The notes under the pieces were generated by a model that was not told the DNA's origin, ran no database searches, and worked only from the letters and a program-made list of their open reading frames with translations. Position numbers and translations under genes: made by a program. From Sphaerochaeta sp. (lineage in GTDB: Bacteria; Spirochaetota; Spirochaetia; Sphaerochaetales; Sphaerochaetaceae), in contig JAGYOG010000010.1 of NCBI GenBank assembly GCA_018399495.1, positions 1 to 64,000 on the forward strand: a stretch of DNA of 64,000 bases, written 5' to 3'. Below are positions 22,617 to 31,645 of the stretch, one piece after another (positions within the stretch are counted from its first letter, which is position 1; each line of letters begins with the position of its first letter).

Positions 22617-23969
22617 ATGAGTACGTATGATTTAATTGTAGTAGGCAGTGGTCCTGGTGGATATGTTGCCGCAGAAAGGGCAGGAGCACTTGGTAAAAAG
22701 GTCCTGCTGATAGAAAGAGGCCATCTTGGAGGAGTTTGTACCAACTGGGGATGTATTCCCACCAAGAGTCTTCTGAACAGTGCAAAACTCTATCATCATG
22801 CGCTTGATGGGGCTAAATATGGTGTTGAGGCTGCCTCAGTGACCTTCAATCTTCCAGATGCAATGGCTTGGAAAGAAAAAACGGTAAAGACGCTGAGAAG
22901 TGGAATTGAGTTCTTGATGAAATCGAACAAGGTAGAAACAATTTTTGGTGAAGCCGAATTTGTTGATCCTCATCATGTAAAGGTCGATGATACGGTCTAT
23001 GAAGGATCCTACCTCATGCTCGCTACTGGCTCTTCAGCTTTTGTCCCGCCACTTCCAGGAGCCAAGTTGGAACATGTGCTTACCAGCAATGAAATCTTGG
23101 ATCTAAAGGAAGTCCCCGATTCCTTGGTTATCATCGGCGGCGGGGTGATCGGGATTGAGTTTGCCTCTTTCTTCTCCATGATTGGGACCAAGGTTACCGT
23201 TATTGAGATGATGGATGAGATTCTTCCCATGATGGATCCAGAATTCGCTAAGCTGATGAGACGTGAACTCAAGGAAGTGGACTTTCACCTTGGTTGCAAG
23301 GTAGAGGAAATTACCAAGGAATCGGTGATCTATACTGATGCTAAGGGAAGTAAACAGTCCACTGATTCTTCTCTGGTCCTGATGAGTGTAGGGCGTAGGC
23401 CAAACACCCAAGGGATGGAGAAGCTTGGTTTGGATATTGAGCGACAAGGGGTTGTCGTGAATGACCGCCTACAGACCAATGTTGCCAACATCTGGGCAAT
23501 CGGGGATGTGAATGGTCGCTCCCTTCTCGCCCATAGCGCTTCCCGTATGGCAGAGGTCGCTGTTTCCAACATCTTCGGTTCAAAAGAGATGCGCATGCGT
23601 TACAACGCAATACCCTGGGCTGTCTATGGGAATCCAGAGGCAGCTGGTTGTGGCATCACTGAAAAGGAAGCCAAAGAGCAAGGCATTCCTGTGAAAAGCA
23701 AAACCGTGCAGATGCGGGCAAACGGACGTTTCCTCGCTGAGCAAGGCAAGCGTGCATCCGGCTTGGTGAAAGTAATCTGTCACCAAGATACTGGTGCCAT
23801 TTTTGGAGTCCACCTGCTGGGACCCTACAGCAGTGAGATCATCTGGGGCGCTTCTGCTCTTATTGAAGCAGAACTGAGAGTCCAGGATGTCAAAGAGATA
23901 GTATTTCCACACCCGAGTGTATCCGAGTTGATCAAGGATGCTTGCTTTGCACTCGAGCATAGCCTTTAA
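22617..23969 (+). CDS. Dihydrolipoamide dehydrogenase (E3)
   Basis: The 450-residue flavoprotein reoxidises dihydrolipoamide with NAD+. The N-terminal FAD fold (VVGSGPGGYVAAERAG) is followed by the redox pair GGVCTNWGCIPTK with Cys 41 and Cys 46. A NAD fold (IIGGGVIGIEFASFF) lies near residue 170, a second FAD contact (IWAIGDVNG) near 300, and the C-terminal active-site HPSVSE is present. All key residues are intact. It lies 8 bases after E2. Confidence 0.93.
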   Translation: MSTYDLIVVGSGPGGYVAAERAGALGKKVLLIERGHLGGVCTNWGCIPTKSLLNSAKLYHHALDGAKYGVEAASVTFNLPDAMAWKEKTVKTLRSGIEFLMKSNKVETIFGEAEFVDPHHVKVDDTVYEGSYLMLATGSSAFVPPLPGAKLEHVLTSNEILDLKEVPDSLVIIGGGVIGIEFASFFSMIGTKVTVIEMMDEILPMMDPEFAKLMRRELKEVDFHLGCKVEEITKESVIYTDAKGSKQSTDSSLVLMSVGRRPNTQGMEKLGLDIERQGVVVNDRLQTNVANIWAIGDVNGRSLLAHSASRMAEVAVSNIFGSKEMRMRYNAIPWAVYGNPEAAGCGITEKEAKEQGIPVKSKTVQMRANGRFLAEQGKRASGLVKVICHQDTGAIFGVHLLGPYSSEIIWGASALIEAELRVQDVKEIVFPHPSVSELIKDACFALEHSL

Positions 23970-23980
23970 GGAGTAACGAT

Positions 23981-26434
23981 ATGGCCAGAACGATACCATT
24001 TGATCCAGCAAAATTGAGGGAACCACTCACCATTGAGACGCCCTCGATTCCCGTTAACCAGTATAAGAGCGACTTTAAGAAAGAGCTCAAGCAATACGGA
24101 AAGGAACGCATGATCCGTGCTTACTATGACATGCTCTTGATCAGAAAATTCGAGACCATGTTGGACACCATCAAGAAAGAGGGTGTATATCAGGGGATTA
24201 CCTACAATCACCGTGGACCAGCCCATCTCTCATCCGGTCAGGAAAGTGCCGCAGTCGGACAGGCAATGGTCCTCGACCCCGAAGACCAGATCTTTGGCTC
24301 ACACCGTAGCCATGGTGAAATTCTTGCCAAGAGCATGAGTGCCATCTACAAGATGGAGGACAAGGAGCTCCTTGCCATCATGGAATCATTCATGGATGGG
24401 GAGACTTACAAGATTGTTGAGAAGCACTTCCCCGGAGAGAGTGTTCGCGATCTTGCAGAGAACTTTGTGCTATATGGTGCCTTGGCAGAGATTTACGCAA
24501 AGAAAACTGGATTTTCCGCCGGTCTTGGTGGCTCAATGCACACCTTTTTCAAGCCTTTTGGAAGCATGCCCAATAACGCTATTGTTGGAGGATCTTGTAC
24601 TATTGCAGTCGGGGCTTCCCTCTATAAGAAGATCAATCGCAAAAAAGGAATCGTCATCGCCAATATAGGTGATGGAGCGCTTGCCCGTGGCCCAGTCTAT
24701 GAAGGGTTGGTACTCTCCTCAATGGACCAGTATAAGACTCTTTGGGATGACAACCCTGGGTATCCCCCCTTCATGCTGAATTGTTTTGACAACCTCTACG
24801 CTATGGGTGGTCAGCCTATCGGTGAAACGATGGGATACAAGGTTGCAGCAAGGGTTGCTTCTGCTATCAATGAGTACTCAATGCACACCGAGCGTGTTGA
24901 TGGATTTAACCCTCTTGCTGTAGCAGATGCAACAGCACGCAAGAAAGAGATTCTTCTTAAAGGCGAAGGTCCTGCCTTTATGGATACCATCACATACCGT
25001 TACAGCGGTCACAGCCCCAGTGATGCCATGACCTACCGCACGAAAGAAGAGCTGGAAGCATTTCGTAACCAAGATCCCATCGTGGCCTACGGAAAATACC
25101 TGCTTGAGAACAAGGTGGTAACCCAGAAAGAACTCGATCAGTTTGATACTGTCCTTGAAGAGAAGATGAGAAAGACTCTCGAGATTACCGTTGATCCGGT
25201 ACTCAGTCCCATGGTTGATGAGCATTTTGTTGAGTCTGTGATGTTCTCCAATGGAAGCGTTGAGAAGTTCGATGACACCAAGCCAGTACTTCTCGAGAAA
25301 CTGAAAGACAATGCAAGAGTTAAGCAGATTGCCCGAAGAAGTCGCTATGCCTATGACGAAAACGGCAAGGAACTGCCTGCTGCGAAGCAGTACCAGTACC
25401 GTGATGCTGTTTTCGAAGCAATGGTTCACCGTTTTTCCATTGACCCGACACTGGTCGCCTATGGCGAGGACCATCGAGATTGGGGTGGGGCGTTTGCCTG
25501 CTACCGCGGGCTCACCGAATTGCTTCCTCCTTCCCGTTTCTTCAACTCCCCGATTGCTGAATCGGCAATTGTTGGAAGTGGAGTAGGCTATGCAATGGCC
25601 GGTGGACGTGCTGTTGTTGAGCTGATGTATTGTGACTTCCTTGGCTGCGCAGGGGATGAGGTATTCAACCAAATGCCCAAATGGCAGGCAATGAGTGCCG
25701 GTGTCCTAAAGATGCCTCTTGTGCTTCGTGTATCGGTTGGAAACAAGTATGGTGCACAGCACTCCCAGGAATGGACCAGCATGGTCGCATCTGTCCCTGG
25801 TTTGAAGGCAATGTATCCTGCAACACCATATGATGTGAAGGGAATGCTCAACTACGCACTCCGTGGTACCGACCCTGTGGTTTTCTTTGAGAGCCAGAAA
25901 CTCTATGGAATTGGCGAGATGTTTGTCAAGGAAGGAGTTCCAGAGGGCTACTATGAAATTCCAGAAGGCGAGCCGGTAATTAGAAGGGAAGGAGACGATG
26001 TTACGCTCATCGCACTCGGACCCGCTCTCTATACAGCAACCAAGGCAGCAGAACAGCTTGCTGAGAAGGGTATTGATGCAGAGGTGATCGACCTGAGATG
26101 GATCAATCCACTCAAGTATGAGTTGTTGATTGAATCAGTTAAGAAAACCGGAAGAGCTGTCTTTGTAACCGATAGTGCTGAGCGTGGCAGTTACCTGCAT
26201 ACCGTAAGCTCCAACCTAAGTAGGCTTGCCTTCGATTATCTCGATGCTCCGACGATTGTGGTTGGTTCGAAGAACTGGATCACCCCACCTGCTGAGATGG
26301 AGGAGTACTACTTTGCCCAGGCATACTCAGTACTGGATGCAATCCACGAACAGATTTTGCCGATTTCCGACTATGTTCCCAAGAGCAACTATACCGACGG
26401 TGAGTTCTTCAGGACCAGCCGGCTTGGTGTCTGA
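23981..26434 (+). CDS. Fused E1 alpha-beta 2-oxoacid dehydrogenase (ThDP-dependent)
   Basis: The 817-residue protein is a natural fusion of E1 alpha (about 1-440) and E1 beta (about 470-817). The alpha half has GSHRSHGE, GLGGSMHTF and a ThDP motif starting GDG at 230-232. The beta half has YGEDHRDWGGAF, FNSPIAESAIVGSGVGYAMAG and a C-terminal transketolase-like domain. At 817 residues it is well over a simple sum of the two subunits (about 660-680). The distance from GDG to the next Asn that could complete the ThDP motif is about 35 residues rather than the usual 25-30, with an insertion reading SSMDQYKTLWDDNPGYP. This points to a divergent subfamily whose oxoacid or ketol substrate cannot be guessed from standard PDH/BCKDH/AcoAB models. 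It is 11 bases after E3 and followed at 12 bases by a PHP gene. Confidence 0.88.
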   Translation: MARTIPFDPAKLREPLTIETPSIPVNQYKSDFKKELKQYGKERMIRAYYDMLLIRKFETMLDTIKKEGVYQGITYNHRGPAHLSSGQESAAVGQAMVLDPEDQIFGSHRSHGEILAKSMSAIYKMEDKELLAIMESFMDGETYKIVEKHFPGESVRDLAENFVLYGALAEIYAKKTGFSAGLGGSMHTFFKPFGSMPNNAIVGGSCTIAVGASLYKKINRKKGIVIANIGDGALARGPVYEGLVLSSMDQYKTLWDDNPGYPPFMLNCFDNLYAMGGQPIGETMGYKVAARVASAINEYSMHTERVDGFNPLAVADATARKKEILLKGEGPAFMDTITYRYSGHSPSDAMTYRTKEELEAFRNQDPIVAYGKYLLENKVVTQKELDQFDTVLEEKMRKTLEITVDPVLSPMVDEHFVESVMFSNGSVEKFDDTKPVLLEKLKDNARVKQIARRSRYAYDENGKELPAAKQYQYRDAVFEAMVHRFSIDPTLVAYGEDHRDWGGAFACYRGLTELLPPSRFFNSPIAESAIVGSGVGYAMAGGRAVVELMYCDFLGCAGDEVFNQMPKWQAMSAGVLKMPLVLRVSVGNKYGAQHSQEWTSMVASVPGLKAMYPATPYDVKGMLNYALRGTDPVVFFESQKLYGIGEMFVKEGVPEGYYEIPEGEPVIRREGDDVTLIALGPALYTATKAAEQLAEKGIDAEVIDLRWINPLKYELLIESVKKTGRAVFVTDSAERGSYLHTVSSNLSRLAFDYLDAPTIVVGSKNWITPPAEMEEYYFAQAYSVLDAIHEQILPISDYVPKSNYTDGEFFRTSRLGV

Positions 26435-26446
26435 TAAGGAAAGCCC

Positions 26447-27763
26447 ATGGATTTGAAACAGCTTGAACAGAGCATCAATGATAGAGATCTCACTACTCGA
26501 CTTACCTCGAGTAGTGAGATTGGTTTGCTGATAAGGCAAGGAAATCTTGAGAGGACACTGCTTGAAGAGGTGAACAACCATGTGCATACCACCTACTCAT
26601 TCAGCCCCTATGAGCCCTCTGCGGCAGCCTATGCTGCCTGGAAGGCAGGACTGGGTATTGTGGGAAGTATTGACCATGATAGTATTGGTGCGGCCGAGGA
26701 GATGCTGGAAGCAGCACAGAATATTGGGATTGCTAGTACTGTGGGGTTTGAGTTGAGAACGAGTTTTCTCGATACCCCTCTGGGGGATAGAAAGCTCAAT
26801 AATCCAGACAGCATTGGTATTGCCTACATGTGTGTCCACGGAGTTCCCAAGCAGCACATCCCTACGGTTGTGGAGTTTTTGAAGCCGGTACAGGCAATTC
26901 GCAACCTTCGCAACAAAGCACAAGTGGAAGCTTTACAGGCTTTGGTAGGAAAGTATGGATTTGATCTCGATTTTGAAAGGGATGTCCTTCCTCTGAGCAA
27001 AGCAGATAAGGGAGGTTCCGTTACCGAACGGCATATTCTCTATGCTATGGCCAACCAGAGTGTCTCCATGTTTGGAAAAGGAGAGAAACTGGTCCACTTC
27101 TTGGAAAAGGACTTAGGCCTTGCGCTTGCTGGAAAGGTGCAAGAGTGGTTGTTGGATAAAGATAATCCCCACTATGCGTATGATCTCTTGGGAGTCTACA
27201 AGAGTACCTTCCTTCCTCGGTTCTTCATCCAACCGTCCAAGGAGGAGTGTCTGGATGTTCGTGAGGTGGTTTCCTTTGCCAACAGCATTGGAGCCATCGC
27301 AGCCTATGCCTATCTCGGGGATGTGGCTGAGAGTGTGACCGGAGATAAGAAAGCAGAGAAGTTTGAGGATGAGTTCCTGGAGGAACTATTGGATCTTCTG
27401 GTGGACATAGGGTTCCCAGCAGTGACCTATATGCCTCCGCGCAACACCAAGGAGCAGATGCTTCGCTTGCAGAAGCTTGCTAGGGAACGAGGATTGATGG
27501 AAATCAGTGGAGTGGATATCAACAGCAGCAGGCAAAGCATGAACTGCCCTGAGTTGTTGGAACCTACTGCAAGACATCTTGTTGATGCTGCTTGGGCGCT
27601 GGTAGCGCATGAGAAGCTTGCTTCTTGCAATGAGACGCTTGGTTTGTTCCACTCTGGTAATCCTTTATCAGGATTGTCTCTTGAGAAGAAGTTGGCACAC
27701 TACGCAGCTTTGGGAAGAAAGATGGATACTTATGACCCATATTCCCTTGTCGAACAGTTCTAA
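26447..27763 (+). CDS. PHP-domain phosphoesterase-like protein
   Basis: The 438-residue protein has a PHP-type metal site: NNHVHTTYSFSPYEP near residue 43 (HxH motif), GSIDHDSIGAAEEM, and later MEISGVDINSSR. PHP proteins hydrolyse phosphate esters with two or three metal ions; this one is longer than the simple YciV/HisK type and contains an inserted segment between about 130 and 270. The first 40 residues are an N-terminal extension encoded by a region containing a perfect 14-bp inverted repeat. AAGGA lies upstream of the ATG. Within this operon it might dephosphorylate a sugar phosphate; that is inference. Confidence 0.75.
   Translation: MDLKQLEQSINDRDLTTRLTSSSEIGLLIRQGNLERTLLEEVNNHVHTTYSFSPYEPSAAAYAAWKAGLGIVGSIDHDSIGAAEEMLEAAQNIGIASTVGFELRTSFLDTPLGDRKLNNPDSIGIAYMCVHGVPKQHIPTVVEFLKPVQAIRNLRNKAQVEALQALVGKYGFDLDFERDVLPLSKADKGGSVTERHILYAMANQSVSMFGKGEKLVHFLEKDLGLALAGKVQEWLLDKDNPHYAYDLLGVYKSTFLPRFFIQPSKEECLDVREVVSFANSIGAIAAYAYLGDVAESVTGDKKAEKFEDEFLEELLDLLVDIGFPAVTYMPPRNTKEQMLRLQKLARERGLMEISGVDINSSRQSMNCPELLEPTARHLVDAAWALVAHEKLASCNETLGLFHSGNPLSGLSLEKKLAHYAALGRKMDTYDPYSLVEQF
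26487..26520 (+). repeat. Perfect 14-bp inverted repeat inside the PHP gene
   Basis: ATCTCACTACTCGA (26487-26500) and TCGAGTAGTGAGAT (26507-26520) are exact reverse complements around a CTTACC loop. It lies 40 bases after the ATG, in codons 14-25. No T-run follows, so it is not a standard terminator. Confidence 0.9.
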
Positions 27764-27772
27764 GGAGGAGAG

Positions 27773-28933
27773 ATGACAACATTTACCGAACAGATCAAGT
27801 ATGAGATTCCCCCAGTTCTACGTGGACTGACTTTTGATGGTCAGAAGGGTTTGTTTATCCACCATGTCACTGGAAAGAAGGGAGACCTGATGCTTCCATC
27901 TCCAAAGGAGTATGCAAGCATCGAAGAGGCTTCTGAAGCGTGGAAAAAGCTGCTTGACGCCTATACAACAGAAAGAAGGGTATACCCTTCTGTGATTGAA
28001 ATTGCAGGAATGGACCTGCAGTACGGACTCGGAACCAACTATGATGAGGCGAGTAGGGCAGAAGGAGTTAGCCTTCTTCCCACGCTTCCTCCCTCTGGCA
28101 GCCGGGCTGACGTGGTACGCGACAAGGTAGTCTTGGTCACCGGTGGTGCTCAGGGTTTTGGAGAGGGTATGGTCCGTTCCCTCGTGGCGAATGGGACTTT
28201 TGTCTATGTAGCTGATATGAACGCAGACGGTGCAAAAAAACTCAGTGATGAGTTGAACTGGGAAGCTTGTATTACTGTTTCCAAACCGCTCACAGTCAAT
28301 GTGACCGATGAGGAGAGTGTTGAGTCTATGATGAATCAGGTAGCTGAAGAGACTGGGGGACTGGACCTGTTTGTCTCCAATGCCGGTGTACTTCGTGCTG
28401 GTTCGGTGAAGGTGATGGAGCTGAAAGATTTTCAGTTTGTTACCAACGTCGATTATACTGGATTCTTTATCTGCACAAAGTTTGCTTCCAGGCTGATGGC
28501 CCTGCAGAATATTCCCAGTGCCTCGTATTTCACAGATATTATTGGCATTTCCAGCAAGTCCGGATTGGAAGGTTCCAACAAGAATGGTGCCTATGCGGGT
28601 GCCAAATTTGGAACCATCGGACTTACCCAGAGTTTTGCTTTGGAGCTGGTTGAGGATAACATAAAGGTTAATGCAATCTGCCCTGGCAACTTCCTTGACG
28701 GCCCGCTTTGGTCGGACCCAAAGAGAGGGTTGTTTGTGCAGTACTTGGAAGCGGGAAAAGTTCCAGGAGCTAAAAGTGTTGCCGATGTAAGGCGGTTCTA
28801 TGAATCGAAGGTGCCGATGAATCGTGGATGTCGCACAGAAGACGTCATGAAGGCACTTCTCTACATAGTCGAACAGACTTACGAGACAGGTCAGGCGGTT
28901 CCTGTAACCGGTGGCCAGGTCATGCTTAATTAG
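27773..28933 (+). CDS. Short-chain dehydrogenase with N-terminal extension
   Basis: The 386-residue protein has about 115 extra N-terminal residues before a classical SDR domain. The Rossmann motif VTGGAQGFGEGM lies near residue 122, NAGVL follows, then the catalytic Ser region (IIGISSKSG) and YAGAKFG with Tyr and Lys; INAICPG-like VNAICPGNF also matches. The SDR domain resembles the dehydrogenase half of RhaEW-type proteins, which oxidise L-lactaldehyde to L-lactate, while the aldolase half is a separate gene here (13138-14217). The extension (VLRGLTFDGQKGLFIHHVTGKKGD onward) is not a domain I recognise. It lies 9 bases after the PHP gene with AAGGAGG upstream. Confidence 0.83.
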   Translation: MTTFTEQIKYEIPPVLRGLTFDGQKGLFIHHVTGKKGDLMLPSPKEYASIEEASEAWKKLLDAYTTERRVYPSVIEIAGMDLQYGLGTNYDEASRAEGVSLLPTLPPSGSRADVVRDKVVLVTGGAQGFGEGMVRSLVANGTFVYVADMNADGAKKLSDELNWEACITVSKPLTVNVTDEESVESMMNQVAEETGGLDLFVSNAGVLRAGSVKVMELKDFQFVTNVDYTGFFICTKFASRLMALQNIPSASYFTDIIGISSKSGLEGSNKNGAYAGAKFGTIGLTQSFALELVEDNIKVNAICPGNFLDGPLWSDPKRGLFVQYLEAGKVPGAKSVADVRRFYESKVPMNRGCRTEDVMKALLYIVEQTYETGQAVPVTGGQVMLN

Positions 28934-28943
28934 GAGAATAGAA

Positions 28944-30218
28944 ATGAAAACACGTGCTATCCGTCTGTATGGAGTGAATGATCTTCGCCTCGAAGAGTTT
29001 GAACTTCCCCAGATTGCAGAGGATGAGATCCTCGCTAAAGTGATAACCAATAGTATCTGCATGAGCGATCATAAGGCCGCCGAGCAGGGCGCAAGTCATA
29101 AGAGAGTTCCAGATGATGTCGACAAGAACCCGATCATGCTTGGCCATGAGTTCTGTGGAGAGATCGTTGAAGTTGGAAAGAAGTGGGAGGACAAGTTCAA
29201 GGTCGGTTCACGCTTCTCCATCCAACCAGCATTGAATTACAAGGGCACACTCGATGCTCCTGGCTACTCATTCCAGTATATTGGAGGGGATGCCACCTAC
29301 GTGGTGATTCCTCACCAGGTAATGGAACTGGACTGCTTGCTTCCTTACGATGGGGATGCTTTCTTCCTGGGAAGTCTTGCTGAACCTGTTTCCTGTGTCG
29401 TTGGCACCTTCCATGCAATGTACCACACAACTGGTGGTTCGTATGAGCACCAGATGGGGATTGTCGAGGGTGGCAATATGGCCATCCTTGCCGGGGTTGG
29501 TCCCATGGGTCTCTCCGCCATCGACTATGCAGTACACAACCCTGACCGCAAACCCGGTCGCTTGGTTGTTACCGACATAGATGATGCACGTCTCAAACGT
29601 GCCCAGGACTTGTACAGCGTTAAGGATGCGAAGCAGAATGGGGTTGAGCTGATCTACGTCAATACCAAGAACTACAGTGACCCGAATGCTACCCTGATGG
29701 AGTACGCCGAGGGGAAGGGGTACGATGATGTACTTGTCATGGCCCCAGTTAAGATGCTGGTGGAGCAGGCAGATGCAATCCTCGCAAAGGATGGTTGTCT
29801 GAACTTCTTCGCCGGTCCCAACAAGACCGACTTTATTGCAAGTCTGAACTTCTATAACGTGCACTATGCATCGACCCATATCGTGGGCACCAGTGGTGGT
29901 AATACCGCCGATATGAGGGAGTCATTGCACCTGATGGAAAAAGGGTTGATCAACCCTGCGGCAATGGTCACCCATATCGGAGGACTCTCTGCTGTCCCTC
30001 AGGCCGTCATCGACCTGCCGAATATCCCCGGAGGAAAGAAGATGATGTATACCCATCTGGACTTCCCCCTTACTGCACTCACCGACCTAGCTGAGCTAGG
30101 AAAGACCAATGAGGTGTTTGCTGAACTTGCAAAGCTGGTGGATAAGCACAATGGATTGTGGTCAGCTGAAGCTGAGGCCTACCTCTTGGAAAACTGTAAG
30201 AAGCGAATCAAGGAGTAA
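28944..30218 (+). CDS. Zinc-type MDR dehydrogenase (SorE-like)
   Basis: The 424-residue medium-chain dehydrogenase has a catalytic zinc site with CMSDHKAA, GHEFCGEIVEVG and a Glu in LAEPVSC, and a Rossmann fold (LAGVGPMGLSAIDYA). The four-cysteine structural zinc lobe seen in alcohol dehydrogenases is absent. It looks closest to L-sorbose-1-phosphate reductase (SorE), which acts on phosphorylated ketoses. The start at 28944 has AGGAG upstream; the open frame from 28911 overlaps the SDR gene. It is 2 bases from rhaB. Possible roles are lactaldehyde/propanediol interconversion or oxidation of a ketose phosphate; neither can be chosen from sequence. Confidence 0.82.
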   Translation: MKTRAIRLYGVNDLRLEEFELPQIAEDEILAKVITNSICMSDHKAAEQGASHKRVPDDVDKNPIMLGHEFCGEIVEVGKKWEDKFKVGSRFSIQPALNYKGTLDAPGYSFQYIGGDATYVVIPHQVMELDCLLPYDGDAFFLGSLAEPVSCVVGTFHAMYHTTGGSYEHQMGIVEGGNMAILAGVGPMGLSAIDYAVHNPDRKPGRLVVTDIDDARLKRAQDLYSVKDAKQNGVELIYVNTKNYSDPNATLMEYAEGKGYDDVLVMAPVKMLVEQADAILAKDGCLNFFAGPNKTDFIASLNFYNVHYASTHIVGTSGGNTADMRESLHLMEKGLINPAAMVTHIGGLSAVPQAVIDLPNIPGGKKMMYTHLDFPLTALTDLAELGKTNEVFAELAKLVDKHNGLWSAEAEAYLLENCKKRIKE

Positions 30219-30220
30219 TT

Positions 30221-31645
30221 ATGAAAAAGCATATTGCCATCGACTTAGGTGCTTCAAATGGACGAGTCCTTGTTGGGGACCTTGGAGAGTTTGAAGTTGT
30301 ACATCGGTTTGTCACCCAAAACGACCAGATACTAGGAGAGTTCTATTGGAATATCCAGAGCCTGTTCGCCGAGATCAAGGTGGGACTGAAGAAGGCTTTT
30401 ACCAAGTATGGAAGTGAAATATCTTCCATCGGCATTGACACCTGGGGCGTTGACTATGTGCTGACTGATGCAAAAGGGAGCTTGGTCTCCCTTTGCTATC
30501 ACTACCGTGACAGCAGAACCGATGGGTTGATCGAGCAGGTATCGAAAAAGCTGGGTGGAAAGATGCGGATCTATGAGAGAACCGGAATTGCCTTCCAGCC
30601 TTTCAATACGCTCTATCAGCTTGCTGCTATGCAGCGTGATCGCCCTGAAGCCATGAAAGCGGCAAGTCACTATCTGTCGGTACCTGACCTGCTTGCTTAT
30701 TGGTTGACTGGTGTAATGAAGAATGAGCGGACTCATGCGTCAACCACGCAGTTGTATGATCCAAAGCAGAGAAATTGGGCGTGGGATTTGATCGATGACA
30801 TGGGTTTCGATCATTCCTTGTTTGGGGAGATTGTCGATAGTGGAACTATTTTGGGAAGCCTGACCACAGATGTCTCTCACGAAGTGGGATCGTCCTCTGA
30901 TGTCTCTGTTATCGCAAGTGCTGCTCATGATACTGCTAGTGCAGTGGCTGCCGTTCCTGCTGAGGCAGGAGGGACTCCACTCTACATTTCCAGCGGTACT
31001 TGGTCCCTCCTTGGAGTTGAACTTCCTGAACCCCGTACAGACCAAGCTTCCATGGAAAGTGGATTCACCAATGAGGTGGCTGCCAGTGGGGGTATTAGGT
31101 TTCTCAAGAACATCATGGGGATGTGGATACAGCAGGAGTGTGTCAGGCACTGGGAACGGGAAGGACAGGAGATCAAGTGGAAAGAGCTTGATGAGGAAAC
31201 ACTTCGCTCGGTAGCCTATAAAGGCTACATTGATCCAGCTGACACTCGGTTTCTCAAACCCAATAGCCATGACAATCTGATGACTGACCGTATCGATGCC
31301 TGGTGCGTGGAGCATGATCTTCCCAAACCTTCCAATAATGGTGAGTATATGGTTGCCATCTATCGAGGACTTGCCAAGGCCTATGCCAAGGCAATCAGTG
31401 ATCTGGAGGCAGTGATCGGGAAGAAGTTTACAGCTCTGCATATTATAGGTGGCGGATGCAAGAATGAGATTCTCGACCAGTGGGCAGCCACTGAAACCGG
31501 TCTACCTGTATACGCAGGACCGGTGGAAGCAACAGCTTTAGGTAACTTGGTTGTACAAGCCTGGGCTACCGGTGAACTGGAAAGCCTGCAAGAGGGTCGT
31601 GACCGGATCAAGCGAGATCAGAAGGTAAAGATCTTCAAACCGTAA
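30221..31645 (+). CDS. rhaB: Rhamnulokinase
   Basis: The 474-residue FGGY-family kinase phosphorylates L-rhamnulose at C1 using ATP. The N-terminal phosphate loop reads IDLGASNGRVLVG, followed by GIDTWGVDY with the probable catalytic Asp, QPFNTLYQL, and a C-terminal nucleotide region IIGGGCKNEILDQW. These blocks match RhaB better than xylulokinase or fuculokinase. It is the last gene of the deoR-E2-E3-E1-PHP-SDR-MDR series, which ties that series to deoxyhexose breakdown. The stop at 31643-31645 is followed by only 32 bases before the convergent helicase gene. Confidence 0.9.
   Translation: MKKHIAIDLGASNGRVLVGDLGEFEVVHRFVTQNDQILGEFYWNIQSLFAEIKVGLKKAFTKYGSEISSIGIDTWGVDYVLTDAKGSLVSLCYHYRDSRTDGLIEQVSKKLGGKMRIYERTGIAFQPFNTLYQLAAMQRDRPEAMKAASHYLSVPDLLAYWLTGVMKNERTHASTTQLYDPKQRNWAWDLIDDMGFDHSLFGEIVDSGTILGSLTTDVSHEVGSSSDVSVIASAAHDTASAVAAVPAEAGGTPLYISSGTWSLLGVELPEPRTDQASMESGFTNEVAASGGIRFLKNIMGMWIQQECVRHWEREGQEIKWKELDEETLRSVAYKGYIDPADTRFLKPNSHDNLMTDRIDAWCVEHDLPKPSNNGEYMVAIYRGLAKAYAKAISDLEAVIGKKFTALHIIGGGCKNEILDQWAATETGLPVYAGPVEATALGNLVVQAWATGELESLQEGRDRIKRDQKVKIFKP

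Follow-up and report, generated by a model that had tools for sequence, protein, structure and literature searches.

The closest described counterparts of the element analysed here come from differential operon decay in E. coli, for which the account we draw on (PMC5927463) places the protective structure within the coding sequence of the downstream gene in 17 of 26 cases. These coding-embedded structures are reported to lie on average 107 +/- 56 nt into the gene, without a U-tract and with conserved wobble positions, and according to the authors they might reduce translation of the flanking gene as well (PMC5927463). Hairpins can also be created by template switching of a polymerase; the mechanism, its recurrence without selection and the creation of hairpins by it have all been published (PMC8794818, PMC8604942). 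Finally, many palindromes of up to 284 bp are described from coding sequences of Nematomorpha mitochondria (PMC6649704).

The hairpin H1 lies in the first codons of a PHP-domain protein gene of Sphaerochaeta, within the window (the whole stretch of 64,000 nucleotides that was analysed). As in the E. coli cases outlined in PMC5927463, it is a stable stem inside the start of a downstream cistron, without a U-tract, with wobble-position conservation in the window clade, and located at the boundary between two functional operon halves. It differs from them in being known from sequence alone, in that no RNase E was found in the four genomes searched, and in that unrelated stems appear to serve different Sphaerochaeta lineages, whereas the E. 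coli structures are reported as often conserved (PMC5927463). With template-switch hairpins, as characterized in PMC8794818 and PMC8604942, H1 shares a near-perfect stem, arm-homogenising changes, recurrence at one place and amino-acid replacements in one arm; unlike them, it has changed its pairs by way of G.U states, and one clade has frozen third positions. The likeness to the Nematomorpha palindromes, as reported in PMC6649704, lies in a perfect inverted repeat within a translated gene, but here the gene is bacterial and holds a single stem of 14-21 bp. None of the papers listed in literature searches has a title naming the H1 hairpin, and such a paper may still exist.

The genes of this rhamnose operon run in the order ABC permease, L-rhamnose mutarotase, DeoR-type regulator, E2, E3, fused E1, PHP, SDR, MDR and sugar kinase, an order kept across the genus loci read (the names of permease, regulator, E2 and E3 were taken from their translations). 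The features under discussion are the following.

23981-26434, forward strand: fused E1 (alpha-beta) dehydrogenase, the upstream gene and end of the E2-E3-E1 part
26435-26446, forward strand: 12-nt gap from the E1 stop to the PHP start, with a Shine-Dalgarno-like AAGGA at 26436-26440
26447-27763, forward strand: gene of the PHP-domain protein (438 aa), which holds H1; its N-terminal helix (residues 15-30) lies outside the PHP core
26447-26521, forward strand: first 25 PHP codons, whose third positions hardly vary within the window clade
26487-26500, forward strand: left arm of H1 (14 bp), in codons 14-18 of the PHP gene
26501-26506, forward strand: 6-nt loop CTTACC of H1, with the symmetry axis between 26503 and 26504, that is, between codons 19 and 20
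26507-26520, forward strand: right arm of H1, in codons 21-25
26614-26646, forward strand: second hairpin, H2, spanning the codons of the conserved E-P-S-A-A-A-Y-A-A-W-K-A; lineages that lack H1 have it in stronger form
27773-31645, forward strand: downstream genes for SDR, MDR and a rhaB-like kinase

On direct reading, the left arm ATCTCACTACTCGA and the right arm TCGAGTAGTGAGAT form 14 perfect Watson-Crick pairs around the 6-nt loop, exactly at the coordinates which a sequence-only reading of this DNA had given, and one further G.U pair is contributed by G26486 and T26521. Taking the A of the PHP start codon (26447) as +1, H1 spans +41 to +74. The same reading had judged the stem to be beyond chance for coding DNA, and this is borne out: H1 is the only perfect stem of at least 11 bp (loop 3-12) in the window, the longest stem in 30 third-order Markov copies of the window was 11 bp, and about 726 kb of coding sequence, within 800 kb of two other Sphaerochaeta genomes, contained no coding stem of at least 13 bp. 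All stems of that length in the same 800 kb fall outside the drawn ORFs of at least 300 nt. Among 50-nt windows of the locus, H1 ranks in the top 0.2-0.6% in the window clade; an RNA fold over 134 nt has a z of -2.15, and when synonymous codons were permuted, none of 300 versions matched the fold of +31..+90. A genome search found the exact arms only at H1 in its own genome (G000), where near-matches to the arm were fewer than for a reversed-pattern control. H1 is a real, single-copy, lineage-specific mRNA stem. Rfam covariance models gave no match up to E = 1 in 26000-27000. As for perfect inverted repeats elsewhere, one of 15 bp lies at 4608-4643 of L033, within the ORF of another gene.

The sequence-only reading had also placed the stem in an N-terminal extension outside the PHP fold. 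This agrees with the AlphaFold2 model (mean pLDDT 93.2), in which the H1-encoded residues fall in a single confident N-terminal helix (15-30) and the first PHP strand begins at 43; the Pfam PHP family matches residues 45-106, below its cut-off. The predicted position of the stretch, a single helix before the PHP core, would explain how these codons could bear a second task. The protein, whose closest relatives come from S. halotolerans (93%) and Sphaerochaeta sp. S2 (91%), aligns gap-free at its N-terminus throughout the genus. In five distant homologues (L036, L037, L049, L058, L065) a stop codon or a start stands just before E41-V-N-N; there the protein seems to begin at this motif and the N-terminal helix seems dispensable.

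Next, we compared the stem across the genus. In 24 copies read (the count set aside the C-terminal fragment L159), H1 pairing was present at its axis in 11. Relatives with the same protein but without the pairing, which had been named in advance as speaking against the element, therefore do exist, in 13 of the 24 copies; two of these 13, however, carry a strong hairpin just downstream. Within clade W, comprising the window and seven other genomes, 15 pairs are kept in 8/8 and every departure is a G.U, so that conservation, which the earlier reading had left to be checked in relatives, does hold at this level. Clade B (L013 = L103, L016 = L104, L017 = L105) has a stem of different sequence on the same axis, between codons 19 and 20, with 21 perfect pairs in L013 and 18 of 22 positions paired in L104 and L105. 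The two copies with a downstream hairpin make up clade C (L099, L100), whose larger imperfect stem extends from about +43 to +125 with a loop near +88. It reaches -51.5 kcal/mol for 85 nt, and in G005 none of the 39,992 85-nt windows taken from 400 kb of that genome is as stable. The remaining 11 copies are at background level at the H1 axis. Although axis and sequence differ, clades W, B and C place the 5' base of the stem at a similar distance from the start codon (about +35 to +46). Two trees, built without the fragments L159 and L160 (one also without L164), place non-carriers between the three stem-bearing groups, with low backbone support of 51-62% at several nodes. A single origin of the clade W and clade B stems was set aside on account of these interposed non-carriers; at such support, the stems may nevertheless go back to one origin with several losses.

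The way in which the stems have changed points to selection on pairing. Across the eight distinct sequences of clades W and B, H1 pairs hold in 95.8% of cells versus 31-44% in slid registers, and both partners have changed in 8 of 15 pairs; as these clades were chosen for having a stem, only changes within a clade are free of that bias. Inside clade W, the stem has undergone three substitutions, of which the window has two and L091 one; each turned a G.U into a Watson-Crick pair, whereas 6 in 90 single changes would be expected to do so; the two window changes are adjacent and may be one event. In clade B, the pair +42/+73 is G-C in L104, G.U in L105 and A-U in L103. Such a G-C, G.U, A-U series is the usual route of change in paired RNA. 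Another clade B pair, ten steps from the axis, is either U-A or G-C, with both sides synonymous. Departures from Watson-Crick pairing were G.U in eight cases and A.C in two (one-sided P 0.055, three clade W positions counted once).

Third positions tell a similar story. In clade W, 2/25 are variable in codons 1-25 compared to 235/398 in codons 41-438 (P 6e-7), and codons 1-25 carry a single synonymous change versus 246 of the 438 codons of the whole PHP gene. The frozen stretch begins at the PHP start codon and reaches as far as the stem does. However, synonymous changes are often scarce at gene starts in this operon (MDR has two in its first 25 codons), and because of this we regard the wobble conservation at H1 as only partly specific and of moderate weight. 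Two further stretches of the window clade deserve mention in their own right. At 28796-29015, hardly any synonymous change is seen in SDR codons 342-386 and MDR codons 1-24, with 25-codon minima of one change in SDR and two in MDR, as low as the H1 block, and an overlapping signal may be present at this junction. At 23877-24019, the end of E3 (from codon 421) and the first 13 E1 codons are also poor in synonymous changes.

Structure in excess of protein and codon usage was then assessed by codon permutation. In 19 of 20 genus genomes the PHP gene had z < -1.5 in +31..+130 or +151..+240, compared to 68/266 and 52/266 background genes (20-26%) of two relatives under the same test, and the better window averaged -2.91 over the 20 genomes; these windows were picked after H1 had been seen, and part of the scan was post hoc. 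In excess structure, PHP ranked above all eight other operon genes tested (the per-gene summary omitted L164, which is near-identical to L163). The presumed linker of E2, +301..+400, contained no such stems (mean z +0.1, minimum -1.4). Distant genera (Treponema, Verrucomicrobia and others) entered the test outside the genus and the homologue and G.U comparison, and the genus counts given above do not include them. Outside the genus, 62 genes showed no signal on average (best-of-two z of -1.06, with -0.95 for control regions; P 0.59), and 4 of these 62 had z < -3 in the N-terminal region versus 8 of 532 background genes; a family-wide signal was thus rejected, the distribution having a null mean and only a fat tail. 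Several individual stems were observed besides. Two spirochaete copies (L035, L056) have unlike stems, each of about 9-10 bp, at a shared place in the PHP start; an A/T swap in one arm is matched in the other, and the axis differs from the Sphaerochaeta axis. A Sphaerochaetaceae MAG (L026) has another unrelated stem, GAAGGGAACC/GGTTCCCTTC, at PHP codons ~29-38. In rhaB, L177 (G006) has a very stable imperfect hairpin in +31..+130 (-47.9 kcal/mol, codon-permutation z -6.1), seen in one species only, and +301..+400 (30521-30620 in the window) is structured in clade W (z about -4) and clade B (-2.6 to -3.8), and not in most others.

The second hairpin, H2, was noticed in the post hoc scan. Lineages without H1 tend to have a stronger H2 (Spearman -0.52, P 0.019, uncorrected for kinship), and a comparison by clade, three against five, gave an exact one-sided P of 0.018; one analysis used 18 of the 20 sequences of this comparison, with L107 and L108 left out. 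It lies over an alanine-rich segment that does not vary, and its pairing is mostly dictated by the protein, with weak covariation at third positions. On these grounds we did not accept the conserved H2 as the actual element.

What could have produced and kept H1? The chief rival of selection for structure is a neutral by-product of template-switch (quasipalindrome) mutation: family codons for R18-L-x-A21 such as CGC..GCG, already complementary, would act as a seed, a polymerase switch would copy the left arm into the right one, a tolerant N-terminal helix would absorb the change, and the palindrome would then decay. We consider this quite possible, though doubtful on balance. It accounts for the departure of the right arm, and not the left, from the family (S21 in clade W and F24 in L013, in none of 32 in-register homologues), for the adjacent TG to CA changes which perfect the window stem and look like one templated event, and for the strong stems that turn up sporadically in this N-terminal region beyond the genus. 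G.U intermediates and later changes of G.U into Watson-Crick pairs, on the other hand, fit stepwise selection better than one-step copying, and neither the linker of E2 nor the 726 kb of coding sequence yielded comparable stems. Frozen third positions in the window clade argue in the same direction, as does the age of the clade B palindrome: L103 and L105 differ at 10 places in +31..+84, and with L104 as outgroup six of these differences trace to L105, two trace to L103 and two are unclear. Since most of them arose in L105, the palindrome is older than L103 and its 21-bp stem is not a fresh event. It should be stressed that template-switch origin and upkeep by selection are compatible.

The remaining alternatives are less probable. 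A ribosome stalled at the stem would, by footprint arithmetic, be close enough to the start codon to block the next initiation. H1 could in this way lower the yield of PHP relative to E1, or serve as a backstop which helps E1 ribosomes to restart on PHP; the similar distance of the stem from the start in clades W, B and C and the third positions frozen up to the stem end are in keeping with such a translation element, but the opening energy of the ribosome-binding site is unaffected in most genomes, and we deem it improbable. This energy lay below nearly all permutations in only 5/20 genomes (L162, L163, L165, L167, L173; at most 3/60 permutations as open), and a hairpin acting as an insulator that keeps the site open was rejected, the energy being average or higher in the other 15/20. 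A DNA operator or internal promoter would fit the palindrome standing directly after a promoter-like site (26453-26482, one 9-of-12 match); as 0.9 such matches are expected by chance, the arm sequence is unrelated between clades and occurs once in the genome, and G.U departures make no sense for DNA, this explanation is very unlikely. The suggestion of a binding site in the sequence-only reading is likewise unsupported, the arm sequence changing wholly between clades while pairing stays, and G.U pairs being present. Its other suggestion, a small mobile repeat (a dispersed palindrome of REP/RPE-like kind), does not survive the single copy of the exact arms and the scarcity of near-matches. An intrinsic terminator was dismissed as well, no terminator-like T-run or U-tract being found after H1. 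Least credible of all is coincidence of protein coding alone: the R..A codon pair does yield a short complementary core in many family members, but synonymous resampling reached the 16 Watson-Crick pairs observed at the H1 axis in only 4 of 20,000 draws for the window protein and the observed pairing in none for the L103 protein, and the same axis is used in two clades.

By analogy with the systems compared above, H1 is most likely a candidate of a known kind, a coding-embedded protective structure, with neutral mutational origin as its chief rival. The model that we tentatively favour, at somewhat short of even chances, assumes a sense-mRNA stem in the first codons of the downstream cistron, kept by selection on pairing and likely protecting the E2-E3-E1 mRNA. 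Twelve bases separate the E1 stop from the PHP start, too few for a stem to fit between the genes. According to the model, an endonucleolytic cut would first occur in the less protected PHP-SDR-MDR-rhaB part, the H1 stem would then stop 3'-to-5' exonucleases, and the E2-E3-E1 mRNA would be left longer lived; slowing of the first ribosomes on PHP might be a second effect. The earlier proposal that the hairpin splits the operon and could set relative expression, be it by pausing, RNase processing or slowed translation, is in line with its location, well placed between the E2-E3-E1 and PHP-SDR-MDR-rhaB parts. Retention of the pairing in close relatives, together with different hairpins near the same position in other lineages, suggests that H1 may set the output of each operon half. 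Genes for PNPase and RNase III were found in all four genomes searched, RNase R exceeded the cut-off of its model in three, and RNase Y exceeded its own cut-off in three but not in the genome of H1 itself (89% complete). No member of the RNase E family was found in any of the four, so that the mechanism described for E. coli would here need RNase Y or RNase III. Counting against the protective reading, translating ribosomes on PHP would open the stem, and H1 is lineage-specific, being absent at the axis in the 13 copies noted; rhaB, too, shows strong intragenic stems.

A more far-reaching version, which we hold to be rather unlikely, is that the need for an mRNA stem persists in the first ~80 codons of PHP, while different hairpins arise by template switching in an N-terminal helix that bears change, are refined by selection by way of G.U pairs, and succeed one another from one close lineage to the next at a kept operon boundary. 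If true, Sphaerochaeta would provide, inside a single bacterial genus, a natural series in which one coding-embedded RNA structure functionally replaces another, and in which origin (template switching) and maintenance (selection on pairing) would be separable. Structure-guided operon stoichiometry, as described for E. coli, would then reach spirochaetes in which searches found PNPase, RNase R and RNase Y but no RNase E.
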